A DNA stretch of 64,000 nucleotides from Clavelina lepadiformis (Eukaryota; Chordata; Ascidiacea; Aplousobranchia; Clavelinidae), in NCBI RefSeq assembly GCF_947623445.1, contig NC_135247.1:14448501-14512500 (forward strand), written 5' to 3'. Below, piece by piece: positions 39,136-64,000 of the stretch (positions are counted from its first letter, which is position 1; the number at the start of each line of letters is the position of its first letter). Both the position numbers and the translations under genes were made by a program. Under the pieces are notes generated by a model. It saw only the letters and a program-made list of their open reading frames with translations. It was not told the origin of the DNA and did no database searches.

Positions 39136-39158
39136 ATATCACCTCTGAAACCACCCCA

Positions 39159-39289
39159 TTCGTCAAGGATTAGCTCATAGGAAAGGGAAAAAAGAACGCA
39201 CGGATTACCCATTCGTATGGGCTAAAAAGAATATTTCCATCTCTTAAAATAATTGTTCGAAGGCTAATCGTGTTGGAATGAGTAATCCA
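39159..39289 (+). repeat. 131-bp dispersed repeat, copy 1
   Basis: Nearly identical (three differences by eye over 131 bases) to the reverse complement of 59197-59327. It starts TTCGTCAAGGATTAGC and ends GAGTAATCCA. An internal inverted pair, TTAGC(C/T)CATA and TATGGGCTAA, suggests a small foldback or MITE family. No target duplication is obvious. Confidence 0.9.
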
Positions 39290-41709: not shown

Positions 41710-44700
41710 ATGTTTACTGCAAATGGAAACTTGACCTACGTGTCAAGAAATGGGAAAAATAAAAGGAGTAAGTACGTTTACTATATTTTACTATGTTTTT
41801 TACGTTTTTTATCTAACGTCTGTTTAAATGGGATAGCTAATAAGATAGTAATTAGTTTCTTTTCATACCAATCTCAAGCGTTAATACCAAGAATTTGTTA
41901 ATCTAAATCAGGGTAGTCCTGTTATTTTTTCTACATGGGGCAGCAATAATAGTGGTTAGAGTAATCAATATATTGATATATCTTTTCCATTGCATAGGGA
42001 ATTACAAAAGCTAAGTTTCGATATTGGGTAAAAGAACCCAAAAAAAGAAAACGACCCGTTTACCTCTTTGGCAAAACATTTGGTCCAGCGTTGAAACCCA
42101 ATGCAAACAGTCACATAGTTACAAGAGGTTCTGTGGAAGGTGATCTAACTGCTACAAATCCTGAAATACCAAGCACTAGTAATGTTAACAGTTCTTGTGG
42201 AGGTGAATGAAAGAAATAATATAAGGAGATTTACAATATATTTCACATTTTTATGCTACATTTTTTCTGAAAATAATCACTTAACAGTCATATTGAATAC
42301 TGCATTTTAATTTTCATGTTATCACAGAGTTGGAAGAAAATTTAAATTACAAAATCAGAAGAGAGAAGCTGTCTTCAGATTGGCGATTAGTTGAAGAAAA
42401 GTTGTTTAAGTTGTCCATAACCCTCTATTCTCCTGAGCGACGTACTTGCTGTGTATGCTTTGAAGAAGTTGCCAACATAATTCGTTGTGGAGATTGTGGG
42501 CCAAATGTATATTACTGTCGTCAGTGCTGGGATAACTGTCATTCTTTTGTTTGGTATCATTTGCCAGACATATGGATGGTAAATAATAATTATATACAAA
42601 TATCTTTATTTTTGTAAAGGTTATTCACAAAAAGACCACTCATTTATCTGGATATAAAAGGCCATTAATGTTTGTAAACATTTTAGTGCTGTAGGCAGTC
42701 TTAAGAAATGTTTATTAATTTGTCTGTTGATAATCAACAATAATTATTTCAAATGTATATATATAATAAGTTAAATACATTCGTCTACATAAAATAATTT
42801 ATCATACCTTTAATTAATTACCACAAGAAAAAGTGGTCACTGGCAGAATATTAGAGGAAAAGAAACAGTAGCTTACATTTCTTTAAACTGGTCTAGACAA
42901 CAATGTCATAGTTGCTTTTTGTGCAGTAGAATGTAAAAACTGTTTGGGTTAATACTGTAAACGAAGTATCTTTGCAATTATTCCTACATTTTTACCGGAA
43001 TGTATCGAATAATGTTGAACTTAGATCTCTGTTTACAATATTGTTGAAAACATTTTCACAGCTGAGAAATACAAAATGTGTCAAAAATGTATCTGAAGTA
43101 TAAAAAGTAAAAGACAATACTGGTGCCATATGTATGACACATTTTATTTCATGGCCTTCAAAAGATTCCCCTCCAACACATTTTTCAGAGCCCTTCCATT
43201 ATACCACTACTACTTACTAATAACACCTTTTTAAATGCTCAAACATCTCCAGGTCTCTGCCACATCAGTAATAGCAAGACTGGTAGCTGGAGAATGATGT
43301 TTGTGCTTGTTCTTTTTTTAGCTGTAAGTTGTTTCAAATCGCTCAATGTCATCAATTATATCAATGATAGGCAGTTATTCAGACAAATCTGGAACAAAAA
43401 ATTCTGTGCAACAAAGTGAAGCATCCAGGCATGATGAAATTATAGAATTAAAGTGGTGAAGGAGATTTTAAGTTAAGCATATATTTAGGGAAAACGTTTT
43501 GCAGTTCTTCGTTAAAGTTTAGCTGCTTCTGCTCACAATGTATCACAGAAGACAGTTGGAGTAAGATAAGGTTGTAAATGATTGCTTTTTGAGACAGCCT
43601 AAATATTTCAGTGTAGAAGCTATGTTACACGAAACCAAAAAAATGTGTTGTTGTGGTATTTGACCACATAGGAAAACAAAATTAAGCGGTAAGCTTCTAC
43701 CCCTGTTAAAATCGTTGATTAAAACAGACTTAGTTTTTTTACAGAACTATTCCTGTATTTCTTGTGTATGTACCAATATCACTTAGTTAAAATATCCAAA
43801 CACCCTCTTGCAATTTTAGTCAACATATTACTTGTAACACATTGTTAATGGTATTATTTACACTTTACAGGGTAACATGTTTTGCAAAATGGTCACTCCG
43901 GTACGACTTTTGAAGAGATTTGATGGTCATGAATGTCAGTCAAGTTACACTCGACACCTTACAGTGGTTGATTACAAAGGTATAATTTTTTTTATTCCTT
44001 TGCATTTATTATAAATCATCTCTGCCATTCTTTCATCCATTGTTTTCTTGTTCATTGGCAAAGTTTGCATTTTAGGTTTTGAAAATGTGGTTTCTGTACA
44101 ATTTTGCTATTGTGAGAGTGAGCCTGAAACTCTGTTAAGATTAAATCTGTGGACCTGTTCGCCCAAAAAGCCTAAACTAGCAGTATCCATTGACCTATTG
44201 GAATACTTTCGAGCCTTGTGTCTCGAAAAACATCTTTCCACTGAAGGATTTTGCCATGCTCTTGAAAATAGATTTTTGCGAGTACCTGGATATACAGCAG
44301 GGGTTAGCACTTTTTAGTGTTTTGTATTTCTAAGAAAATCCGAAACAACCTGTGGATGTTTCTTGTTTTTTTTTGTTTTAGGTAAAGTCTTTGTCAAGAG
44401 TTTTGCTACAAGAAGTGGTTGAGGCATATAGACACCATGTCTATAAGCTGCAACATCTGCATGGTTTGGTCTCTTCTGATGATATAGATACGGGTACCCT
44501 GTGTCCAGCATGTGAAGGGGTAAAGCTAAGAAGTGTGATTGAAAGTTCCCAGGCCTCTTTGATCGAGTGTAAATGCTTGGCTTTAACTGCGTTTTGTTGG
44601 TAGAATCCTGAAGGTATGCGGACATATTGCTTAGATGCAAATTTTGGTTTGGTGAGAAGAATTTTGTCTGGGAGTAAAAGCTGTGATCCTCACCACAAAC

Positions 44701-47700
44701 AATCTTTTTTTTTAAACCAAAATGAAGTCGACAGCTTTGTAGACACCTATGATGAAAACAAATATGGCTCGGCTGTAAGTTATTTCTTAACAGTATGTAC
44801 CAAAATGCATTAAAAATATTAAATCAAGTACATAACTTCAACAATTGATTTCCAATCATATTGTTATGGTCCTATTATACATTTCAAGGAATTTAATGCG
44901 TATTTATAAGAATAAATGCTGCATACTTATGCATTAATTAGAATCATTATTTTTAGTCCAAAAATTGCAATGACTTTCAAGCAGGCAGCATCATTAGATC
45001 GAAATCTAAAAGCAGTAAACTGGCTATCAAAGGTGTATTTGGTGTTTGTTGTAAACATGAGTTTCCGACAATGTTTTTTGACTTAAAACATGGTGAAAGG
45101 TAAAGTGTACATTCTTGCTTTAGTTGTTTTGTGGAAGGTGTATTACTACGGTATATGTAGAATTTGTGTATTAGTAATTGTAAACAATGTTTTTAAAACT
45201 GATTCTGTTGCAGGCTAGCATATGCAGTTTTAGCTATTGAAAAACTTCTGGAAAGAAACGAAAATAAAATAAGAGTTTTCTATGACATAGCTTGCAAACT
45301 GAAAGGTCATCTTCAGGTATACCTTTAAGAATTTACACATGATATTGTGTTAGTATGGCAACATTGATATACGTTTAAATTATAGGTATACAACCCATTT
45401 TTCGAAACATATTTTATTTGTAAGCAATCTACTCCTGGGTCATTGATTGCATGTCATTAGTGTTCTTAATGTTAGTGCATGCTGCAGACGATGCTGTATG
45501 TGCAAGTTAGTTAATCATTTTTGCTTACATAAAATACTGCATTTATGTTTAAATAATAATTAAGATTTTGTGATTTTCTTTCTGAATTCCAATATGATTT
45601 TATTATTTAGGTCCGAAAAAACTTTGCAATTCTTAATAAAATAACATTTGCAGTACCTGTTTTTCATTCATATGGCCATATTTTCTCTTGTCAGGTAAAC
45701 ATGATATTTTATACCTATATATTGTACAACTGTTAGGTCAAAGTCTTTTAGTTTTATTACACTGAGCACAAGAAATTCAGCGAAAATATCAAGGTCTAAT
45801 TTTGAAAAACTTGTTGTCTGTATGACAAAATCTTTATATAATGATGTATTCAAGTGTAATGAGATAGTTATCTCTCAGTTTTTTTGTTCTGTTTAAAATT
45901 TAGAAACAATTCAACCCGAGGTTCCTGGACGGGTTTGGACTTACGGATGGTGAAACTGTGGAGCGATTATGGGCATACCTTCGTGGATTTAACAAAATCT
46001 CAAAAGAGATGAAACCGGAACATCGTACTGATTTGCTTACCGATGGCTTGATTCATTATGGGCGCAAAATCAAAAAAAATTTGGGTAAGCCTTGTTTGTG
46101 ATTTGGTCCAGATTGACTTAAGATATCTTCACGCAATTAAGTAAACTTGCATGATTTAGGTTTTCTTTTTCTTCAGCTTTCAAACATGCACTAAATAACT
46201 AAAACAAATATGACAAGCTTTAAGCTCTGTTTCAAAGGTTGTGCATTGATGAACAAGCTGAAGAGAGCTAGCTGCAAAATGGAATTGGCCAAGAGTGAAT
46301 TAGAAGCTATGGCAGCTTCTTACCCTGGTGGTATGTATGATTATGTGTCTTTGTATATTTGTATTTGTATCATATATTTGAATTATTATATTCCATGTTA
46401 TTTATTTTCAGAAATGAGAGTATAACATTATACAATAAACCTTACAGGAACATTAACACAACATCAATTAAAAGCAATAGCTCTGCAACCAGAGCCGTAT
46501 TCTTCTGCAGAAATGGCATCTTTTTCTTGGGTAGAAGAATACTCACTTAAACTTCAAGAATACTATTGGTTGAAGTGAGTTGACTAAATGTTTTCTGAAT
46601 GATACATTTTTCAATACAATTTTGTGGTGTATAAAATTCACGCTAGTTACTGTTTGTGGGTTGTATTGCAAAAGTGAAAATTGCGAAACTGTTGAACATA
46701 CAAATTTAAGTACTGAATCCTTTAGGAATAGAATTTTGTATAATTGTATAGGAAACTATATAATTTTGTTAATTTGTAGAGAAGAAGTTGAAGATTTGAC
46801 CAAGGAAATAACGTCTGAAATACTTTCTGGAAAAGTTGACCAAATTGCTAAGTAAGCTGAAGGACATATCAATGTTAAATTGAGTTACTACAATAATTCC
46901 CCAGACATAAACGAATATTGTTACTTCCCACTGCTGCAACATCAGAAACCCTTAGAAAAGCTTATAAAACAGTAACAACAGTGTATCCACCAAATTTACT
47001 GTGATAAAGTTAAAACCCACACAATGATGGTGAAAATACAGTATATGGGAGTTCAATTGCCAAGAGTATTGTTTGCCAGGACATGATATATGCTTTCTTC
47101 ATCGATGTATTGCATGTTCTTCTATTTTACATATTGTATGCATTGTTTTGTAGACTTGACAGTCATCTTTCCAAAGTTGAAGTAGAAAACGGTATATTGA
47201 TTCGTTGGGATGTAAAAGATGATATGATGCTTAAATATTTGTCAAGTGCTGTGAAGAAAAAAAGAGCAGAAATTTTGGAGAACATTTATAAATTAAATAT
47301 CGAAAGAAAATTTTTATCTACTTTGATTCAAAAATACCCAGGTAATTTGTGCATGCACTATGCATGGGGTTACATTATCGATAAAGCTACTGTTCTGTTA
47401 TTTTCAAGTTTGTACATGATGATTTTTCAGCTGGTCAAACAATTGTTCAACGACTAGTGCGAAGCATCAGGAAGGTTAACAACAACATTCGTCATCAGAT
47501 TACTATGTATAATAAATACCAGAATGTTCCACAAAATGAAATGAAAAGCATAACTTTTGAAATGGTTGTCGGGTCTGGGCCAGTTAAAAACATACCTGGT
47601 TTTATTGAAAAAAAAATCAAGGAACAACATTGCATTCGGGAAAGGTGCAAAGAAGAAATGTGTCATTTAAAAGAAGATATGACAAGTGTGATGAACTTCT

Positions 47701-48014
47701 ATCAAAAGCAAATAAACATACTGTCTAATCTTGTAGAAGGCTGTGAGGTTGTGGAACCATATGTGGTTACCCATCAGTTGCAAGCAGAGATCGAACTTCT
47801 TTCTTTCATAAATGACATTAAGGGCACAGTACCTTTTCAAGCGAATACACCTCTGCTCAATGAGAAGCTAGGCACTTCCAATATGGCAAAATTGGACCCA
47901 ATGGAGAAAGAAGATGATGAAAGTGAATCACCAATAAATTTATCTGAGCTTCAACACATTTTAACTGAATTTGGCTCGGAAAGCGAAGGTTCAGATAACG
48001 AAGATGAAGCTTAA
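41710..48014 (+). CDS. KDZ (Kyakuja/Dileera/Zisupton) transposase-like protein with CxC cysteine cluster, ~16 exons, ~906 aa
   Basis: Exons: 41710-41767, 42011-42202, 42328-42578, 43871-43979, 44076-44302, 44382-44519, 44604-44774, 44957-45099, 45214-45316, 45611-45694, 45904-46084, 46238-46330, 46448-46574, 46780-46851, 47154-47341, 47431-48014. From 42328 on, every junction is GT-AG and in phase. The first two exons are less sure; an alternative acceptor at 41998 breaks phase. About residues 124-160 form a CxC cluster (CCVC...RCGDCG...YYCRQC), which in KDZ proteins precedes the transposase. The core shows YCLDANFGLVRR (Asp codon 44634), GVFGVCCKHEFP, HGER, VFYDIACK (Asp 45284), FHSYGHIFSCQ and GLTDGETVERLWAYL (Glu 45952). 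That gives a plausible D-D-E triad. A long charged helical tail ends acidic. No stop or frameshift interrupts it. It could be an active element or a domesticated nuclear DNA-binding or transposase-derived protein. Confidence 0.88.
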
Positions 48015-48223: not shown

Positions 48224-49147
48224 ATGATTGCAAAAAGGAGCAATGCACGTCGACCTAAAACGTGGAAAGACCTCGACGAAATCCTCAAAGAATTCGAAAT
48301 CCAAGCCCCAGCCCGACTGGGTGTCGACAAATATGGCATCAAAGACCGAAGAAGGATATACAAAGTCAACAAGAAGACGATGGAGCGGCACCAACACCCA
48401 TCGTACCTATACCTGGGAAAACTGAGATGTGCGGTAAGTTACAACGGGCAAATCTCAACATGTTCTTACTGCACTGAACAGGGCCACAAATTCAAAGAAT
48501 GCCCCAACAGGATACAACCAAGTACCGACAACACGACTAAACAGGAACTTCCGAAAACACCTACGCGGGCTATAGATCCAGACGATGAAAAACCAGCAAC
48601 ACCCCCCAACAAAAGTAGCACAGTGGACCATGCTGCTGCCGAAACAAAAGAACTGCGACGAGGAACAGAACGAGAGAGTGCCAAGGATGCAAAAAAGAGT
48701 CGACCCACAACAGAGAATCCACAAGAAAATAGCCGGGAGCCCGACTCCTATGAGGGATCCTCGGAGCGAGAACACAGCGAGATCCGAGGAAACAAGAGAA
48801 AAAACATAAGCGGAGAATCGGATGAACAACAACAACAAGAAGAACCAGGATTTATGGACGAACAAATTCCACACGATGCTTCCTCGATACCACCTAACCT
48901 ATCACGCTTGATCCCTTGCTCATGCGGACAGCTTATTAGAATCCGAAGAAACAAGAGCTCACGGAAAACAACTCCGAATTTCCATCAACCGATCTACTGT
49001 GAACGTTGTACAACAGCCTTTATTAGATGTACTTGTACAAACTTCTCGATAATACGTATCAATAACAGATTTAAATCATTCCAATGCGAAAAATGTGAAC
49101 ACACCTACGAACCCAATCCAGCAGACCTTAATGCAACTGTAAATTAA
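48224..49147 (+). CDS. Zinc-knuckle, gag/LINE ORF1-like protein (307 aa)
   Basis: Single uninterrupted frame, 210 bases after the KDZ-like stop. The chosen ATG is the first in frame; the frame is open a little further upstream, so the 5' end may be truncated. Residues about 20-80 hold a segment ending KLRCAVSYNGQISTC. It leads into a CCHC knuckle CSYCTEQGHKFKEC, as in gag and ORF1 proteins of retroelements and some ZCCHC proteins. A long hydrophilic Lys/Glu/Pro-rich linker follows. The last 80 residues have three C-x-C or CxxC pairs (CSCGQ, CERC, CTC, CEKC) like a zinc ribbon. The composition is richer in G and C than the neighbours. It is probably the first frame of a non-LTR retrotransposon; the alternative is a co-opted host protein. 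No reverse transcriptase is visible. Confidence 0.55.
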   Translation: MIAKRSNARRPKTWKDLDEILKEFEIQAPARLGVDKYGIKDRRRIYKVNKKTMERHQHPSYLYLGKLRCAVSYNGQISTCSYCTEQGHKFKECPNRIQPSTDNTTKQELPKTPTRAIDPDDEKPATPPNKSSTVDHAAAETKELRRGTERESAKDAKKSRPTTENPQENSREPDSYEGSSEREHSEIRGNKRKNISGESDEQQQQEEPGFMDEQIPHDASSIPPNLSRLIPCSCGQLIRIRRNKSSRKTTPNFHQPIYCERCTTAFIRCTCTNFSIIRINNRFKSFQCEKCEHTYEPNPADLNATVN

Positions 49148-49405
49148 AGATTATAGATGTGTTTTGTGTGTGTTTTTTCCTCCGATAAAAACCCGTGTTT
49201 TTTTCTTTCCGACATTTACACGAGCAGATTTTTTTTAATTTTTATTATTAAGTGTGCCTTAATCGTTTAAGAGCGCTTAATAAACAAAAACGATAAAACC
49301 ATAGCTTTTTTACGGAGAGTAGCAGCCTAGTGCCCGAGCAAAAGCTATCATTTGTCTTTTCAAGGCGATCCGGGATATTCGTTTCTTGCGTAGTGACTCA
49401 AGTTG

Positions 49406-51969: not shown

Positions 51970-54900
51970 TTACCAATCTACTGTTCTATGTGTTGGTTCA
52001 GCAAAGTGCAAATGTTCCTCATTTTCACATTCTTCCGTTGTCACCAAAAGAACTAAATTGTTTTCTGCCAGCTCCAAATTACTATAAAGAGCAACAAGAA
52101 TAACAGAAAGCGCACAGCGTAAAATTTGCAATGTAATCCCTTTATGCATGCAAAGATTACAGAAATCCCATCACTTACCCCCTTTTCATAATTATAATAT
52201 TTTCTTGCTCATCTATAATTTTCTGGCAATCGACTGGACCATAACTGCCAGGATTTCGAAAGGGGATTCCACAAGGCATTCCAGTGATGCTGAACTCGTT
52301 AATTTTAGCATACGGCATACGTCCATTGGATTTGTGCATTGTCTCACCTGTAAAGCACCAGAGCAAAGATACCAAGGCATGCACAAACACAACTTAATAT
52401 AATTAAGATAAAACAATTAGCATCAATTCTATTGTATTACATTCTATTGCTTGGAAAAATACGCAACACTAATAATAAAATTTTTTATTTCACACCGTTA
52501 GGCTAAAGAAAGACAATTTGTTGTCATAAAAAGACTTACAATATTTCTTATTAAAAATTTTTCGAACTTTCATTTGCAATTCGGTGTTTTTTTGTCTTGA
52601 AGTACTGCAAGCTGTATACAAATATATAGCATACGTTACTTGTAATGAAAATTTTTTCATACTTTATGATTAACGTGATTAATAATGACACTAATATCAT
52701 TCAGGTTCATATGCAAAAAAAATCTTCAATGAGTTAAAGTTAAAAAATAAGTGCTATAAAAGTTCCTTTTAATATATGCTTGCAGTAAATGTAACTGTAG
52801 TTAATCATGTTCTTACAAATGTTTAGAAATATCACAGTAAATTACATAAAATTACCTTTTCCGCCATGTAAAATCTCAATAAAGCCACTTTGAACACTTG
52901 GCTCCAAGAAATATGGCCTTACATCCCTGCTTCCAAATGCATTGAATGTATCGTTAACAAATGCCATTCCACCAACCGCCACACCAATTTCTTCAAGTTC
53001 ACCACACTAAAACAGGAACAAGTTACCTTTGTTTCGTGTACAGCACGGTTACACCATAGTATAATATGAACAGCAACATACAGCTTGAATTATTCGAGCA
53101 ATTGCATTTTGTCTAAGTTTTTTTTTCATATTTCCATCCATTTCAGTTGGTGGTATGGAACTTTCAGAATTGAAGGTCTTTGCTTTCTCTTTCCAAACTT
53201 GTTTCGTTTGCTTCGGAAGTTCTCTCCACCTGCTACCCCAGAGTTTGAAATCTTGAAAAACAGCAATTAAAAATTAGTACAGAACATTTGAAAGCTTTAT
53301 AAAAAAATGAACATAAATTGAAAGTAAGGAACACTGAAAACAGGCAAGACCTTACTTCATGCAAAACACTTTGATAACTTGTCTAAACTAGTACTTTCAT
53401 TGTTCAGCTGTTAACATAGTGAAACCTTCATTTATGTAAATTTTGAAGTTGAGTAGAAGCTTACACCTCTTAAGATTTAACAGCGTCAATCAATGTTAAC
53501 ATCTTCGATATCTAAGGCTTTCTAATAACCAACATAACAGTAAACACATTTTTGGAAATTCATTACACACGTATCATGTGAGGTCACAAATAGCATGCAC
53601 TTCAAGTCATGCATCATTCATTATGTATCATGCTCTTCACTAATCCAACTAACACTGTGACACAAGTTTCACAATCAAACCGAGAAAAAAAAATTACGAC
53701 ATGCAAATTTAGTAACGAACACAGTAAGCATGAAATCAATGAATGCAATTTATCGGGTGAAAAACAATGAAAATTATTTTCAGTGAGAACTACATTTGTG
53801 CATTTAACGACATAATGCTAATGACTCAATGAAGCAAGCGATCAATTAAGCAAACCAGCCAGAATATCAGACCTTGTACATATCTTAAATGAAACACATG
53901 TGATGCTGTCTAGAAGCTTCTCCCTTGAAAATTTGGGAAGAAATCATGCAACTGTATTAAAAATACCAATATTCTGTTTCTTAATGGAAGAACAAAATAG
54001 ATTGTAGCCTGTGATTCTTCGTTTTCGAAAAGGTTTAACTTTTTGAACCCTTCGCCTTATTGATGCATTGTAATTGTAAATCCAGCGCTAAAACACAGCA
54101 GTTGTCAAAACGCTAGTAAACAAGCGGCAAAAGTATTTAGTAGTGGCAGTTTAACATACCATCATACAAGAGATCTGAGAAAGGGACAAACTTTAATCAT
54201 TTTGTAAGATCATGCAATAAACATGCAATAACTACTTTAAGTTGGAGAGTTGTCCCGGACAAGGAACAGAGCTTTTTGTCAGCCAACAAGATTATTTTGG
54301 CGAAGACAACTGTTGCAATCTTTGAACTTAAAGTACGTAATGGCATCTTTCAACCAGAGTTCTATCATAATAGCCTACTTCATGCGGAAATTACAGCATA
54401 GAGTTACAGTAATGAACTGTAACTTGTTTGTAAAGCAGGGAGTGCAGTTCTACAGCTTGCGGTAATACTGAAAGAGCTGATAACTATAGCAAGTATGAAT
54501 TATGGCAAATAAAACTTTAATCTACGATGAATAACCTTGATTTGGTTTTTACTTAAACCAGTATTAATGGTTGCTTCATTGAGGTGCTCTGACTTTGCAG
54601 TTCTCATACCTTTTGTTTCCCACAAAGATATAAGCATATCCCGCTGGCTTTGTGAAATGTCCTTACTGAACAATGCAAATCAAATCATTAATAAGTGAGA
54701 CACAAAAATTTTTTTTTTTAAATTGAAAACACAGCTTGTCTGTATCTACACGAAATATCTTACGTCCATCTGGACGGCAATTCAGAATAGCGTTTTATTA
54801 ACACTTTTAGTGACTTGCATGCAAATAAACAGAGTGACATGAAAAAAATGCCATACTATTACTAACATTTACTTATTTATGACCAAAGATCGAATTAAAT

Positions 54901-54973
54901 ATACAACAGATATATACATATAAGTTAGCTATTATACATGAAGAACTAACCGAGATCTTCTAGTGCTTGCCAT
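51970..54973 (-). CDS. Gene D: HMG-box-like protein with a GTF2I-like repeat (model incomplete in the middle)
   Basis: Minus-strand exons: 54973-54951 (ATG, MASTRRS), 54665-54610, then 54087-53967, 53251-53082, 53006-52856, 52347-52179, 52081-51970 (stop TAA). Phases agree within the first pair and within the last five. Between 54610 and 54087 they do not, so a small exon is missing or an acceptor is misplaced. A divergent HMG box spans two exons: ITGYNLFCSS, then LWGSRWRELPKQTKQVW and KEKAKTF. The 52347 exon carries RMPYAKI...FSITGMPCGIPF RNPGSYG...IIDEQENI. This matches the end of a TFII-I (GTF2I) repeat, whose signature is VPY...GLPxGIPFRxPxxYGIxxLExIL. The protein is likely nuclear and DNA-binding. 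A MITE lies 45 bases past its stop. Confidence 0.65.
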
Positions 54974-57419
54974 GTTACTCAGAAAAGAGCAAATAGTACG
55001 ACAAAATTTTAACAATTTTACAAAAATTAAAACATGCAATAAACTAAACTGTTTGGATAAAAATTAGTTTTGTAAGAAGTAATCACCACTCAATATGAAT
55101 TAAGAATAGAACATACACACATAAAGATAGTTGTCCTAATAAATAATATAACTTAGGGCACATGTTGCATTAAAAGCAAACGCTCAACACTAAAGTCTTA
55201 CAGATGTCAAAAATTTACTGTGCACAGATATGATTTTCTTGGTGCTTGGTAATCAACAGTAAGCGCCATGTTCCAACTGCAACTCCTTTTCAAATCATAA
55301 AGGCTTCAAAGATTATCAAGAAGTTTGGCCAACCCTTTTATGTATATGGTACACGTAAGTCTTTTCCTACAGCACTATAGTATTACAATATCACAATGTT
55401 CTTTAGGCTAATAGCTTATATGCACATACTTTGATGTGAATTAAACACTTAATCTGTGAGGTCATTGTCTGTCTCAGCAAAACCAAGTTATGGGCATTGA
55501 TGCTATAAAAATGTAAAAATATAAGCGATAGTAGCTGTGACATGAAATGACAAATGTTCCAAATCAATTTACTTGATATTTGTTTGTAATAAGCGATTGT
55601 TTTTCGGAGTAAATAGCCATTTATCTGCACAACTTCTTTGACCAGATTTTTGTTTAAATAGGCCATTCTTAAATGCAGTTGAGAATAAATTGCCAGCATT
55701 ACTGTTCAAAGTGGATGGCTTTTAAGAGGTGGCAAGTTGTTTACAAGCACTTTTAAGAGGATGTTTTAACTAAAATCCATTATATCATATATATTGTAGT
55801 AACCGGTGCCCTTCAAAAACTTTGCTAATCGTAACTTTCTTAATTGAAATGTTTGGTCTGAAAAGCATACAAAGTAGGTGGCTTCAGGAAGAAATTGAGT
55901 TTTATTTTGAAAACATTACACCAAAATGAAGTGCTGTTTTCAATCCTCGCAGAAAAGCAATCGTTTAGACAACAACAACCTATTATTTGTCGTAATTTTG
56001 ATGGCAGCCACTTGAGATGGTTGCTTTCGCATGGACTAAGATTCAAATCAAGAGCACTAGAGCCAAAGTACACATTTCAGTAATAACTCTAAACATTCTC
56101 TTGGAAAGGTAGAACAAATCTTACTGACACTTTTTAGTCGGAGGTAGTGGTATATTTTGAAATAATTACAAGAATATGTAAAACAGATAATAAAAAAGTC
56201 AAGACAGGCTTCAGAATTTCATGGTCCCAAACTAGGGTAAAGTTGGTACAACAACAACAACAAAGGTCAGTAAAGGGGTACACATGAAAAAACGTTTCCA
56301 AATTAAACAACTTCATGCATTATGTATTTACTTCCAAGTGAAGTTTCTCCCAAAATAACCAAGTTTCAGTCATTCACAATGTGCATCAAACAGAAGATTT
56401 CAGCTGGCAAACAATGTTTGGTGGTGGATAATGTTGCATTCCAAACAAATTAAAAAATTTAAATAGTTTTAATTTAAGAATTTAAAATACGAAATCAAAT
56501 CAAAATATTTTACTGTTGACAATAATTATTACCATCAAAAAAACTCTGCATAATCTAACAAAACCTTCTTTTGTCTTAAGTTAAAAAGCAATGAAGCACA
56601 TTCAAAAGTAATCAATTTCGCTAAGCGCAGCATCTTACATCGATTAGCAGAAAAATTCTCGGACAGCAGTTTTTGCCACAGCGTGTGCTCTGACTTACTC
56701 TGACTGCTGGTTGGTCACTATGTTTTGTTGTCTCTCTTTAAATTATTTTCTCCTAATCTCACTTGATGCCACTACTAACAGCATGATCTGCATATCAACA
56801 AGCACTTCCCAGATGTCTGCGTTGATGCCTGTCCTTTTTGGGTACGTTTGAAAACATCCCTGATGTGTAGTGCGGTACGAACTACACAGTATCGCTTAGT
56901 GGCTTGTTTACCATAGAAGGTCTTGAAGTATATCAGCATTCTTGCTGTGACTCACATGACTGAGTAAGCGCAAACAATGTCAACAGAGCAAGTTATGTAT
57001 GCTGAGCGAGTCCCCAGCAGATATGGACCTTGCCTCATGACACATGACTGTGATAATGACAGCATCTTTGCCAATAGACTAATTGTTCTTAATGAATGGA
57101 GATAAATAATTTATAATTAATTACCCATCACAGTTGAGCCAAGTGGTGAGTGAACTTAAATAACGACCCACCAAGAGATCGGGTACTCGGCCAAAAATTG
57201 GGAAACAGTGAGCTGACCCTTGGCCAATGCATATATCCAAAATTGGAGAATAAAGCTACCAATGAGTGTTAGCATCCATTTACCCTAACACCAAGGTAGC
57301 AAAACGTGAGCTTAAAGCTAACATCAACAGCTCACCTTGTGACACCTTGCAGAAAATTTAAATCTTTGGTCAAAAAATGACTAACGGGCATTGGGCACCA
57401 AATCTACACTGTTATAGTA

Positions 57420-57570
57420 AACAGCGTCCTGTGACTGGATGTAGACCTATAGAACCCCACAGCATGACAATTTTTCTGTTTTTGTGAGCATTGAACCTGC
57501 TGGGCTTCAGTGCGATAGAGTCACTCTTTACCTTGCACATTATGAAGCGGAGCCACTCTGATTGCTCCTC
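57420..57570 (-). repeat. Possible tRNA-derived SINE
   Basis: The minus strand contains GCAGGTTCAATGCTCACA (57483-57500), a good RNA polymerase III B-box context. A weaker A-box-like GTGGCTCC lies about 50 bases upstream. Boundaries are unknown. Confidence 0.22.
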
Positions 57571-58267
57571 CCAAAACTATTTGCCTCAGCAAAAAAGCAA
57601 GCCGGATAAATAAAATCAAGATACCCATTGCTCACTGGCTCTACACTGCTAAGGATGGCGTGGGGGACTTAATTGCCTGCTATCTGGAGATGGTTGTTTC
57701 TGTTCAACCCTGTAAAAATAGGGAATGGCAAACAGTGTAACTTGTGAACGTAGCACAAAGAAGATTGCAAAATAAAGATTACAACATATCCAGCTATTGT
57801 ATCCCCATGTTCCCCATGGAATACATAGTCATCAATTTTTGGATGGCAGCATTACCCAGTTGTTACTTGACTCAAGCTCAAACATCTAGTTTGTGTTGCC
57901 AAATAACATCTTGCTCAGAGGAAGCAGGCTGATGGTAAAACAGGGATATTTTTACACAAGACATTTATTTTCTAGAGGCCGTTTATTATCATTTTTAATT
58001 TGTAATAATCTGCAAACTCATGAATGCATATAATCGACAAATAGCACTCTTTGAGAACGATTGAAACCTTCGTTTATCGAAAGTCAAGACAAATTAAATG
58101 ATTGCCTTTTGCTTATGATCTGCATATCAGATGGATTTCCTTTTTGAAATACTACAATGTTAAGTTGTTCATTCACTCCACTCAGGATTTCGAAGTTCTC
58201 TGACAATCACACAAGATCACTGTACTCTGCAAGCTCGTTATGTAAGAAAGCAGCAATGTTGAGTAGT

Positions 58268-58450
58268 AGCCAGCTTTGTAGCCGAATGGTTAGAGCTGGC
58301 AATTAGGCAGTGTTCACTACCCAGTAGCACTACCATTGTTATGCCCTTGGGGTATTACCAATGCTTGCTCCAGTTCAGTGCTTCTGATAAACATACCTAA
58401 ATTCAAGCAATAAAAAACATATGTGTATCATTCCGAACTTGCTTAAGAGC
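58268..58450 (+). repeat. tRNA-derived SINE-like element
   Basis: TAGCCGAATGGTTAGAGC at 58279-58296 is a strong A-box in a tRNA-Leu/Ser-like context. The B-box position (TGTTCACTACCC) is degraded. The tail includes TTGGGGTATTACCAATGC and ends in an A-rich AATAAAAAAC. Not a functional tRNA, because the arms do not close. Confidence 0.45.
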
Positions 58451-58749
58451 TAGCCAGATAAGTGGGGCTGGAGCAATTAAAGATTACCACAAAGGTTAAT
58501 GGAAGCGAACTAAAATGACATATGAAGTTATACTTCTATCCTAGCCGCCAAATAAAGAAAACCATGTTGATTGCTGTGAAACGCTTTGACCTTATGCCAC
58601 AGCAGTGGTATGCCACCTGTATATAATTGATGCAATCACACCAGCTTGAATGCAAAACTATTTCAACCTGATGCTGAATAAAAGCACCATGCAATTACCA
58701 AAATTCAATTTAATACATTGCATGAGCACTGCAAACCCAAAAAAGTGAC

Positions 58750-58990
58750 TTTTGGCTACTAGAGTACCGGTCTATCGTTGGCTGGATTGCCAGTTCAAAC
58801 ACCATTGTGCATTGCACTGTGCAACAATTAAGCAGTCTTTAGAACTTGCTTGGATTCTACATTCAGTAAGTAGAAGCCCGAGGTAGATAACCTATATCTT
58901 GTCTACGAAACAGGACCGATTAAGCAGCGTTAATGCCAGACACACCAAACGCATGAAAGAACTGAAATCGAAAACTAGGCTATTTTGTTC
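58750..58990 (+). repeat. Second tRNA-derived SINE-like element
   Basis: TGGCTACTAGAGTACC (A-box-like, 58753-58768) and CCAGTTCAAACACC (B-box-like, 58790-58803) are spaced as in a tRNA gene. A non-tRNA body follows. The stems do not pair as a tRNA. Confidence 0.4.
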
Positions 58991-59196
58991 ATTTCAGCCT
59001 TTTCAGATTTTTAGTGAGATCCGTTTATAGTTTGTGCAAGGCATTCCAACATGCATCAATCACTATACAAACCTTATCCATACATACCGGTATAGATCTC
59101 AGTAGTCTACAACAGTAGCCTAAGCCATCCAATCGTACCGTACGATGACCAGCCACAGCAGTTCGACTGGATTACTTATTCGACCTATCGCTCGGT

Positions 59197-59327
59197 TGGA
59201 TTACTCATTCCAACACGATTAACCTTCCAACAATTATTTTAAGAGATGGAAATATTCTTTTTAGCCCATACGAATGGGTAATCCGTGCGTTCTTTTTTCC
59301 CTTTCCTATGGGCTAATCCTTGACGAA
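59197..59327 (-). repeat. 131-bp dispersed repeat, copy 2 (inverted relative to copy 1)
   Basis: Reverse complement of 39159-39289 with about three mismatches. Just outside it a second GGATTACTTATTC word (59169-59181) echoes the element's GGATTACTCATTCC end, so this copy may sit beside a truncated partner. Confidence 0.9.
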
Positions 59328-60268
59328 GCGGGTGCTGAAACTCAATTGATACGACCACGTTTGTCCGATCAAAGTTTATTACTGTTAAAGGCGTTGCACT
59401 AACTTCAAACCAAGCAGTATGACAAGTATCTGGTATAGAAAAATATCACCCGACATATCCTTGTGGCTAAAAGTTTTTTTTTCCATTTTGCAAATAAAAG
59501 CAACGTTGTCAAACGCAGAAAGATTCAAATTACGGTTGTCTCTGTCCAGGTACAAACACAATTTTTACGATCTTCGCATGGCGTATATACATACTACAAA
59601 AGAAAAGTGATCAAAGTGCTTGTGCTAACTAAATGCCTACGCGCTCGTAATACAGTAATCATTGAGTAAAGACTAACTCACTAGATGTAGCGTATTTATG
59701 TATGATCCATACATCGTCGCTGTTTTACGATAATATCCATAACAGAAAACACCATAAATTTCATGAAAGACGTATCCTTATAGGCTAATTTTACAACTCA
59801 AATTTGCGATAAAAATGTAAACAATAAACTAAAGTGCTCAAAATATCTGTGAAAAAGTAAGTAAACAAAGTCACTGTATTTTTTAGCATTTATGCCAAAA
59901 ATAGCTATGACATTCGTTAAGCGACAACGGAACAATACTGTTCATAGCGCGCACTGCATAAGACGGAATAAGTGCAGCAATTAAGTAAAGCAAGGAAAAC
60001 GAATACACATTAAGCAAATACTAAAAGGAATACCTTACACTTTGCAAATGGAAAGTATACTTACAGTTTAAAAGTTAGTTTACTTGTATAGCGTGTTTGC
60101 CAACGGATATACCGTAACGTGTTTTTACTAAACGCGCTTTTTATCATGTTGGAAAACACCACAGCAACCGTTTCTGGGTGCAGCCCTTCACTCGGTCGTT
60201 TCGCCTTATTCTGAACAATCATGTTGCTGGTGACATGTGACATCACGGCAATCGGATTACAAGACAAG

Positions 60269-61980
60269 CTACAACAACTGACACGGCCATGTAGCATTCA
60301 AGCCTGGAAGTTCACGTGCATATACAAAGCGCTCTGTACCAATTATCCAAGCTATGCCTTCTCCGCTCGAAGTCAAGCCACAAACCTCAGTGATAGGAAT
60401 AAGATTCACGACTTGCGTCTGTGACTAAAATTGCACTTATTTTAAAATCTTCATATTTCGTGACAAATTTTCCGAAAATCCAAGCAATTTTTTTATAATA
60501 ATCTTTTTCAATTCTTCAATCTTCAAAGTTATAAGTCGTTATATATGGATGAAGTTTATTTATTTACCTGCATTCTCTGTCTTCCCAATTTTGCAGTATG
60601 GTTAGTTTTATGTAACTCTATAAAGGCCTTGGATGCTTTAACCATTTCTTTGTTTAAGCACTCATTGCTAGGAATCGGGCGTATTTTTTTGCTACTTTCT
60701 TCGTAGACTGGAAGACCTTTACACTTCCATAAAAATTTGGTTCGAATATTCTCGTGAAGTTTTGGTTCTTCGGAATAATAATTTCCTGTTTTTGTTTTCC
60801 TAAATGAAGAAGAAATCATCTAAACATTGCTGTTAATGTTTAAAAGGGCAGTTTGTAGCTTTCCGGCTAATAACTCATACCAAAATGTTTAAGCCACTTT
60901 CTTACCAAGTTACGATGAGTTGTTCGTATTTTTCAACCTTGCCAGAATTAGAACACCTCTTGCAGGACCACTTGCCCTGGCCGCGACATAAACAGCATCT
61001 GATGGAAAAAATGTTCTACTTCAAAACGTAAAGTATCATATTGACTGTCGAAAAGAGTAACATAATCTGATACTAATGTTTCCAAATAAACGCAAAAGGC
61101 TTAATATTATACATTCATATAAATTCTACCTTGGTCAACTCACTCCAACCAAGCAGGTGCTCTAACCGCTATCAGGTTGGTTAAATATATAATTCTTTCA
61201 CCCCATTATGGCGTTTGTGACACAATCTTGAGAATAGCTCTCATACGAGGAAATTTTACCATGAAAACAATGCACACTTACTCTTCCATTCCCGCGCCCC
61301 CGCAATTGTGACAAGTCTCGTGCCTGGTACAACCACGGATCTCCTGATGTTTTGTCACTTGGTTCATCTGCAGGCAAAAAATAATGATAATAATCTATAA
61401 CTTACAGCAACTTATTACGTACTGTATTTCGGAAAGACTACTTTTCTTTGTATCAAAGCATTCTAAAGCCGTGATATGTCATCAGTAATTTTTCTTCAAA
61501 ACTATAGCATAAACCTCACCTCGTAGTGTGTTTCGTGCAACGTGCTGTGTCCGTTACCATGGCAACGCCAGCAAGCAACTTGGCCAGTTCTGCTGCATTT
61601 GGAACAAAAGTGGTGCCCTACGCCAATGCAACTATTGAAATAAAGGAAACAATCGTTAACGAGTTAAAAGTTCTTTTGCCCTCTATAAATTTAAAGCTGT
61701 GCTAAGAAGATACGAACGTTGCGACTGATTAGTAATCGCCATATACCTATCACATTCCAGAATTGAAGAAGTGTAAGGGATTTTTTCTTTTACAACTACT
61801 TCAAGATTTTTAGGCAGATCGACTTTGATGTCCCATATATCAGGCCGTTTTGAGTCATTCTTCTTCTGGCCAAAATCTAACACAAAGCGGAGGATTTTTT
61901 CAATTTCTCCAAAGCTATAGGGTTTAATTTGTTTTCGTTTCAAAGATGAGTAAGAATATTTATATTGATTATTGAAATAC
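60269..61980 (-). CDS. SSUH2-like zinc-repeat protein (5' end not found)
   Basis: Minus-strand exons: 61980-61747, 61631-61520, 61367-61282, 60998-60906, 60799-60568, 60424-60269 (stop TAG). All are GT-AG and in phase. The first exon includes KPYSFGEIE and KEKIPYTSSILEC, matching the conserved EPY...IxVPHTSxxxxC region of ssu-2 homologues. CxxC zinc repeats follow over three exons: CSKCSRTG, CWRCHGNGH, CHNCGGAG, CLCRGQGKWSCKRCSNSG. These are DnaJ-type CxxCxGxG repeats without a J domain. Next comes YEQLIVTWKTKTG, then LGRQRMQ|SQTQVVNLIPITEV, and a C-terminus near IIGTERFVYAREL...CQLL. SSUH2 proteins are linked in vertebrates to tooth and odontogenic gene control; the biochemical role is poorly defined. 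The N-terminal exons upstream of 61980 were not found; the extension to 62012 has no ATG. Confidence 0.85.
61133..61195 (-). repeat. tRNA A-box-like fragment
   Basis: The minus strand reads GATAGCGGTTAGAGCACC (A-box context, 61156-61173) inside an SSUH2-like intron. No B-box follows at the right distance. Probably the 5' stump of a SINE. Confidence 0.3.
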
Positions 61981-62012
61981 CTGATTTGGAATAAGGTGCC
62001 GCCACCTTGCAC

Positions 62013-64000
62013 GTGGACCGACGTTCAAAGACCGATTCGATATGGTACTGCAACGTAAGTTAGATGCTTTTTAGAATTTTAATTTGCTGCAATTAAGACA
62101 TTTTTTAGAGACACACTGTCAGTCATATAATAACATATGGATTCTGGAGTCTTTTAGTTAAGTAATTGCCATTTTCTTTATATCTTTATAACACCGAGTG
62201 AAATCAACTTACATGCCACGTAACTATGGTCTCAGTGTGTGTGATCTTGATTGGTTTAAATCTGCTTTCGCAACATTTTTGACTCGCGTAGTAGTCCATC
62301 AAGACTTCTTCAACGTCACTTTTATCCAAGTGGGGCACTCTGTAAAAACCACAATTTTAAAAATTGATGTTGCTGTTTTTAGTTTCATCATTATCAAATG
62401 TTGCCAGGAAGCTGACAACCTTCCGTTCATAATTGTAAAACATGTCAAATATTGTTGGCCTATCAATATAACCTGTCAATATGCGTATTACGTAACTAAG
62501 CAGTTTTTTCTTAATCATTCCCACGGCAGTATAATATAAATAAACCGTTTTTAGTCCCACGTTGAAATGAAAATCGGTAAGCCTACCCTACAAGAAAATA
62601 CACCATTTAATCAAGTGACGTACGGCGGAATAGTTAGTGATGATAATAATTAAATGTCTAAAATAAAAATAATCACAAAAGTCGGATTGCAGTGATTGAC
62701 CAGTATCCAAACTAATTTCGTTTGCGACGAAATCTGTTGGCCACGTTCAAGTTTCAAGAAGAATTTAAATGTCAGATTGTTTGAGACTTGGGCTATCGGG
62801 TTCTTAGGCGTGACTGTATTTTACTGATGGTCAAAATATTTTGGAGCATTGAGCCACGCAGAACATTGCTATTTGCTACCAACAAACAAAACGACTCCTT
62901 ATAATATGCCAGCAGTGCACTTTGACAGCTGACGATATACATACGCCTGTTGCTTTGAGTTTTCTGATACAGTCAATGCACTTGGGACCGTGAGAAAGTG
63001 ATTTAATGTGATGTCAATGTCATTGGCAGACCACGGACTACAACCAATGGGTAATAAAAATAACAACGTGTCGTAAATGTCAGTGGAGCGTAAATATCGT
63101 AGCAAAGACTGTTCCCATCAATACGCATAGGGCAACATAAAAGTGTAAAATAAAAATTTTAGCATGATTATCATGTAGTTGCAAATGAAAATCAATAAAA
63201 ATATGTAATTAAACTCAATTTTGCCTTAATTAAAAACACCAATATCCACGAAAACAAAAAGGTTTTCTCCGGAGACCAACACTTATAATCATCGTTAAGA
63301 AAATTTGATCATAGATTAAAAAAACATGTTTGTGTTTATGAGCAAGCCAGTATAGAAGAGCATGTGGTAGTCACCAACCACAATCAATGAACATGAATCG
63401 ACTATCTATTGTTATCGATCAATGACGATTGTGTACGTTGCTTTAATGACGTCAACAGCTGCGCGGGTAACAGAGGAGGCGCTATTAAAGCTTATGTTTA
63501 AACTCGTTTATACGCCTGATTTTGCTTGTTGCAATGTTGAATTAAATCAACTCCGCACGAGATGTAGATATTAGAGACAGTATTTGCCCTGACTCAAACG
63601 GCATATCGCCGTTTTAAATTAATACACACTGCCAGCGTTAAAGGTTGTGGTTAAATCGAATATGAAGGAAATATGAAGGGTAAAGGGAACTTTTCTCCAG
63701 TTTTACGGCAAATACCTCCTCATCAAAACGTTGCGGAGTTGACAAACTGCTGAAAAGTTTAAAAAAATCAACAGACGCGAAATCGCTTTTAGCCGGGTTG
63801 GCACGAAGCAGTGTCAGGCCAAGCCAGGTCACATGAAAAATTGCACTATTCGCTTGACATTGGAGACATTATGTTGATGAATTGCTGCAGGATGTAGCTT
63901 CGCATCACTTGCTTCCAATGGCACCTGTTGAATCACTCTCCTAAAAGCTTTCGCTTCGTTGACGAATGCATACCGGCTATTTTCGGTAAACATATATCGC
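62013..64000. other. Region upstream of the SSUH2-like gene
   Basis: It should contain the missing 5' exon(s) and promoter of the SSUH2-like gene, but I cannot place them. A minus-strand frame at 63638-63832 (MTWLGLTLLRANPAKSDFAS...) looks protein-like and has a possible GAG|GTATTT donor near 63714. I cannot tie it to a gene. Confidence 0.35.

Follow-up and report, generated by a model that had tools for sequence, protein, structure and literature searches.

A 64,000-nucleotide stretch of the genome of the ascidian Clavelina lepadiformis (C8:14448501-14512500, hereafter the window) contains a very recently active KDZ transposon of 20,183 bp. This is seen from its termini, its target-site duplications (TSDs), its identical copies elsewhere in the genome and an open transposase gene in which the acidic residues are retained. 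The element also carries a second gene, ORF2, whose product contains a GTF2I-like repeat (I-repeat), a domain called unique to the TFII-I family in PMC3493543. We consider it probable that the transposase works on the terminal inverted repeats (TIRs) of this recently active transposon and that ORF2, most likely, binds GGATTA sites within them. Our genome searches covered 209 Mb in 95 contigs; the published assembly is given as 210.1 Mb (PMC10884593).

Ends, copies and transposase of the element

The element occupies positions 39152-59334 of the window, starting with CACCC and finishing with GGGTG. A search for inverted pairs yielded TIRs of 138 bp at 39152-39289 (plus strand) and 59197-59334 (minus strand). 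The two arms are 96% complementary and form the sole inverted pair of at least 30 bp within 38900-59700. In genome comparison the left end is a sharp edge at 39152, and in other copies the 138-bp end recurs inverted about 20 kb away, among the matches scored (the best 40 of 143 candidates). Subterminal direct repeats are limited to one pair of 19 nt inside the right end. Comparison of flanks places the TSD, CTGAAAC, at 39145-39151 on the left and 59335-59341 on the right.

We sampled 13 full copies, namely that of the window and 12 others. CACCC and GGGTG bound all 13, and a perfect 7-bp TSD flanks 12 of them. Pairing left flanks with the right flanks of other copies gave no match in 156 combinations. 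The 3' half of the transposase gene is present at 98-100% identity at no fewer than 24 loci, of which 21 span the query completely or fall 17 bases short of it and three are partial. Between the window copy and the copy at C1:11.89 Mb there are zero differences across 20,183 bp, and zero across 19,905 bp between C1:10.56 and C7:17.67; the TSDs differ within each pair. Other possible sources of identical copies are gene conversion, segmental duplication and errors of assembly. A perfect match across 20 kb is indeed extreme, and the near-identical copy at C8:7.64 Mb has no matching TSD. However, similarity ends at the TIR ends and each of the other 12 copies has its own duplication, which makes an origin other than transposition very improbable. 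The transposase of the C8:7.64 Mb copy stops early, and this copy perhaps reflects recombination between copies.

The first-pass annotation, made from the letters of this DNA, had taken 41710-48014 as the unit, with no visible terminal inverted repeats. The real unit is about three times longer; neither the TIRs nor the element's right half nor ORF2 had been noticed. The annotation offered either a recently active giant element, which the copies and their TSDs bear out, or a domesticated gene. A KDZ-derived host gene that has lost its mobility would fit an open frame with many introns and retained acidic residues. However, the same annotation had set copies with target duplications against domestication, and such copies, near-identical and with different flanks, are what we found. 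We reject domestication because of these copies, the TIRs and the 7-bp TSDs, and leave it a practically negligible probability. The supposed loss of mobility is contradicted by the pairs of identical full-length copies with different TSDs.

Transposase and ORF2 are both open in 9 of the 13 copies, and both are broken in C4:19.8. Two copies, C3:15.1 and C3:9.2, are without transposase exons 11-13, including the exon of the catalytic glutamate, and their ORF2 is truncated by 13 codons. These two (C3:15.13-15.15 Mb and C3:9.23-9.25 Mb) are identical across 21,322 bp and have different TSDs, although neither has the glutamate exon. On the simplest reading they were moved by the transposase of another copy, which suggests action in trans on very large defective elements. 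Miniature derivatives keeping both ends are found at C6:16854461-16854961 and C3:2681390-2681752.

The transposase gene (41750-48014, plus strand) comprises 16 exons separated by GT-AG introns in our splice model and encodes 897 residues in an open frame, in agreement with the intact, intron-rich KDZ gene of about 16 exons and 900 residues annotated at first. The annotated end at 48014 also stands. The start at 41710 does not: a reading from there fails to continue in the frame of exon 2, so the start is the ATG at 41750. In Pfam the product matches KDZ (PF18758) with 155.1 bits versus a cut-off of 26.6 (residues 323-530; 44622-46044, plus strand, spanning introns). The annotated cysteine cluster corresponds to CxC2 (46.6 bits; residues 177-260; 43925-44272, plus strand, spanning an intron) and CxC1 (36.2 bits), both exceeding their cut-offs. 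The catalytic codons, likewise placed as annotated, are those of aspartates at 44634 and 45284 and of a glutamate at 45952. In an alignment of 22 proteins both aspartates are invariant and the glutamate is conserved in at least 90%. An RNase-H-like fold around these codons, which the annotation had named as a check, is backed by a predicted model and by PDB matches with moderate Z support. Thus far, the transposase is apparently catalytic and the element apparently autonomous, judging from sequence. The window and C4:19.8 genes differ by 7 synonymous and 11 nonsynonymous changes (ratio of nonsynonymous to synonymous rates, dN/dS, 0.41), counts which are small and involve a broken copy. In a protein search, three proteins named Clavelina lepadiformis are 97-99% identical to the transposase across the aligned parts, and further relatives came up in Ciona, Patiria, Mytilus, Physella and cyprinid fish.

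ORF2 and the GGATTA sites of the ends

ORF2 (51970-54973, minus strand) is convergent to the transposase gene. Its exons lie at 54973-54951, 54665-54536, 54087-53967, 53251-53082, 53006-52856, 52611-52540 (a cassette exon), 52347-52179 and 52081-51970. The product has 315 residues with the cassette exon and 291 in the seven-exon model without it. NCBI models of the gene vary in splicing, two containing the cassette exon and others skipping the cassette or the HMG exons. The I-repeat (PF02946) is encoded by the cassette exon and the next one (residues 210-274; 52179-52611, minus strand), and with the cassette it scores 36.1 bits versus a cut-off of 27. A PDB search gave eight chains at E<=1, every one of them a repeat of TFII-I or GTF2IRD1, the best at E 5.9e-6. 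The first 75 residues match no Pfam family. Homeodomain-like and HMG-like stretches within 53082-54665 (minus strand) are weak and are treated as leads only. Structure prediction for ORF2 gave an unusable model, with a mean predicted local distance difference test score of 34.8.

When the genome was searched with the 71-residue repeat, 60 candidates were scored, which makes the counts minimum values; at least 35 I-repeat loci emerged at E<=1e-5, each of them for the main exon. All 35 belong to KDZ families. Family A, that of the window, accounts for 24 at 93-100% identity; its repeats at C2:15.13 and C5:2.89 Mb are not among the listed transposase loci. Group A' has four loci at 72% identity, where the transposase lies on the strand opposite the repeat; the ends aside, its DNA matches the window at 71-85% identity. 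Family B has another four, at 38% identity, with KDZ matches 5.2-5.7 kb off on opposite, converging strands. The remaining three are family B fragments, one at C6:5.72 Mb that also carries a family B transposase exon and two on C3. The latter, which have no KDZ match nearby, were considered as a host TFII-I gene; this was rejected, since their 401-base pieces resemble family B, being 96.5-98.2% identical to DNA of that element over 234-297 bases. A 36th match, at E 0.12, lies near the C7 copy of family B. No I-repeat outside A, A' and B was seen at the sensitivity used. Family B loci on C1, C2, C4, C7 and C8 are 97-99% alike, with one at about 92%, and the I-repeat gene was seen at four places.

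One might argue that the ORF2 domain resembles TFII-I repeats without homology, as it is a single short domain, there is no usable structural model and the protein searches found ORF2 in Clavelina only. Yet the score exceeds a curated cut-off, only chains of the TFII-I family appear in the PDB list, and the family B repeat reaches the Pfam cut-off independently at five places. We therefore give absence of homology hardly any weight. A and B can also be aligned across the stretch preceding the repeat (score 91, reached by 0 of 2000 shuffles). Over 242 codons compared between A and B in five ungapped stretches, with a gapped sixth stretch and the C-terminal match left out, the proportions of nonsynonymous and synonymous differences are 0.23 and 0.76, and the comparison is saturated.

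Each TIR has the hexamer GGATTA, read on either strand, at positions 16, 51 and 132, and the right end has it again at position 161. The left sites are 39167-39172, 39202-39207 and 39283-39288 (reverse); the right ones are 59198-59203, 59279-59284 and 59314-59319, with an extra site just inside at 59169-59174. The two terminal 400-bp stretches thus hold seven sites, versus four in the 18,183 interior bases. Since the TIR arms are copies of each other, only three or four of these sites count as independent. GGATTA is the only 6-mer occurring at least three times in the left TIR; three occurrences were reached in 16 of 20,000 TIRs simulated at first order. It is not enriched in the whole window (24 observed, 29.15 expected). 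A' elements keep the sites in both ends, and the C3 miniature derivative retains three of three in its full arm, which is 82% identical, and two in its 66-bp arm. GGATTA is one instance of RGATTR, reported as the common core selected by repeats 4 and 5 of BEN (GTF2IRD1) and repeats 4 and 6 of TFII-I in systematic evolution of ligands by exponential enrichment (SELEX; PMC3438194). A bicoid-like motif, GTTAATCCG, is described as recruiting GTF3/MusTRD1 (PMC3157005). The match between the ORF2 repeat and the TIR sites is a strong lead.

We propose that the DDE/RNase-H transposase would act on the 138-bp TIRs and insert the 20-kb element, producing 7-bp duplications of the target. ORF2 would be a predicted DNA-binding accessory protein and would most likely occupy the GGATTA sites, three per TIR. 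Its binding may help to pair ends that lie 20 kb apart and/or control transcription from them. This putative role is modelled on the separate DNA-binding proteins of other two-gene transposons.

Alternatively, ORF2 could be a passenger. An ancestral element would then have picked up an I-repeat gene from its host on a single occasion, and transposition would not need it. In fungi, capture of TET/JBP genes is reported for DNA transposons, Kyakuja, Dileera and Zisupton among them (PMC12730594). The two C3 copies spread despite an ORF2 that is 13 codons short. Two protein searches found ORF2 in Clavelina only: all four relatives in the first were from this genus, as were eight of nine in the second, in which only the 7998 candidates sharing most words were scored, the ninth being a 59-residue ENA protein. 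However, ORF2 has been kept, convergent, in A, A' and B, though their repeats share just about 38% identity between A and B. It has fewer nonsynonymous than synonymous changes per site (dN/dS 0.34 from 7 and 5 changes between the window and C3:15.1, small counts involving a broken copy), and the TIRs repeat a hexamer that fits the known core of the repeat. A dispensable passenger is thus unlikely in our judgement, and an accessory role of ORF2 at the TIRs is preferred.

Several observations weigh against a transposase working on the TIRs with ORF2 at GGATTA. PDB matches of the transposase to helical, non-transposase proteins score about as high as those to integrases, and one of the 13 copies, C8:7.64 Mb, is without a matching TSD. 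Without the cassette exon, the I-repeat scores 23.6 bits, under the cut-off of 27. The HMG-like stretch reaches 16.1 bits, under its cut-off of 25.4 (E 0.016 when scanned alone), and the homeodomain-like stretch matches an engrailed chain at E 0.37 and has no Pfam match. Relatives of ORF2 outside Clavelina were not found in the two protein searches. As to the sites, the wider motif RGATTR stands out less (283 of 20,000 simulated TIRs; Poisson 0.003), and full-length BEN is reported to select an unrelated motif in SELEX (PMC3438194). The choice of GGATTA was made post hoc, as the hexamer was noticed first, then tied to the repeat, and the paper found afterwards. GGATTA is also a classic homeodomain site; it could therefore be bound by the transposase or by a different part of ORF2.

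Origin of the I-repeat and related transposons

Two histories fit the data: the I-repeat came into the transposon from a host, by capture, or hosts took it over from a transposon, by domestication. In the latter, the I-repeat of TFII-I would descend from the accessory protein of an animal KDZ transposon, a DNA-binding protein recognising GATTA-type end sites; the module would have stayed in the host gene with its site preference intact, and the repeat would have increased in number. As a full account of TFII-I origin this is a tentative proposal, which we hold to be possible and somewhat improbable. Between the two histories, the site match and the fact that no other I-repeat was seen in Clavelina lead us to lean mildly towards domestication. 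The two protein searches lend it no support from other animals, and scanning viral contigs with the ORF2-type protein revealed no relative. When the domain before the repeat was compared with a provisional version of the N-termini of human TFII-I proteins (GTF2I/GTF2IRD1), agreement ranged from marginal to non-significant: the best of four pairs was equalled in 43 of 2000 shuffles and the others in 248, 612 and 759; profile against profile, the figure was 8 of 150. The hhalign match between ORF2 and TFII-I is confined to the repeat.

GTF2I and GTF2IRD1 are deleted in Williams-Beuren syndrome. Their repeat is now placed inside a mobile element, and its published core is present in the ends of that element. 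The TFII-I family (GTF2I, GTF2IRD1 and GTF2IRD2) shares with ORF2 the GTF2I-like repeat, and its RGATTR core fits the GGATTA of the element ends. However, these are described as multi-repeat host proteins (RD1-5 in GTF2IRD1), whereas ORF2 has a single repeat in 315 residues. GTF2IRD2 is reported to be fused to a hAT (Charlie8) transposase (PMC10641963), which is a separate, later transposon link than ORF2. No paper naming both GTF2I and KDZ, or both GTF2IRD1 and GGATTA, was found in the searched literature, in which few subscription papers were included.

We file the element under KDZ and tentatively call it Kyakuja-like for its TSD and termini. Two Kyakuja families of Laccaria (Agaricomycetes) are likewise reported with a KDZ transposase, 7-bp TSDs and CA...TG termini (Kojima 2025, PMC12730594). 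They differ in that they are described as having no TIRs and a TET/JBP gene, whereas the Clavelina element has 138-bp TIRs, an I-repeat gene and an animal host. Zisupton, known from fish and the nematode Pristionchus, resembles it in many-exon animal KDZ genes, recent activity and reported TIRs (PMC9297572). However, Zisupton and a Dileera family are given 8-bp TSDs (PMC12730594), not the 7 bp seen here, although TSDs could reportedly not be found for the Pristionchus elements; the available text of PMC9297572 mentions no I-repeat gene. A model for the role of ORF2 is provided by the Nuwa lineage of Harbinger transposons, which has a transposase gene and a separate gene for a DNA-binding protein (PMC12730594). 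Unlike the present element, Nuwa is not KDZ and is reported to have a Myb/SANT domain in place of the I-repeat and a 3-bp TSD. The Clavelina element, from an animal host, allows a little-tested superfamily to be assayed, given its defined ends and TSD, its open genes and copies that do not differ across 20 kb.

Other features of the window

RFC3-like exons were read by eye at about 27.9-35.4 kb, and the element begins 3.8 kb farther on. Downstream of it, at 61500-62030 on the minus strand, lies a cysteine-rich CxxC fragment of a host-like gene. No tRNA was found in the window (ARAGORN, bacterial settings), and no Rfam family reached its gathering score within 38.5-60 kb. A by-eye listing across the element showed no striking frame of at least 65 residues beyond the two genes and a frame at 48.2-49.1 kb. 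This frame (48224-49147, 307 residues, with a CCHC-like knuckle seen by eye) lies mostly within a 1,016-bp segment of the young lineage (48278-49293, plus strand), defined by copy comparison. Older copies have a wholly different segment of about 0.9 kb in its place, and two 95% identical copies of the young-lineage segment occur elsewhere, at C7:9.18 and C3:24.56 Mb.

Public gene sets carry pieces of the transposon as ordinary or unnamed Clavelina genes, and one public model fuses the start of the family B transposase with the I-repeat. Two stretches towards the right end, in which no gene was recognised, are at least as similar to A' as the transposase exons are: 56876-58601 at 85-86% identity and the last 735 bp (58600-59334) at 92-93%. 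Within the latter, 278 bp of the window copy (58854-59131) are absent from seven of nine other young copies, and these seven form a sublineage whose members differ by at most eight substitutions.
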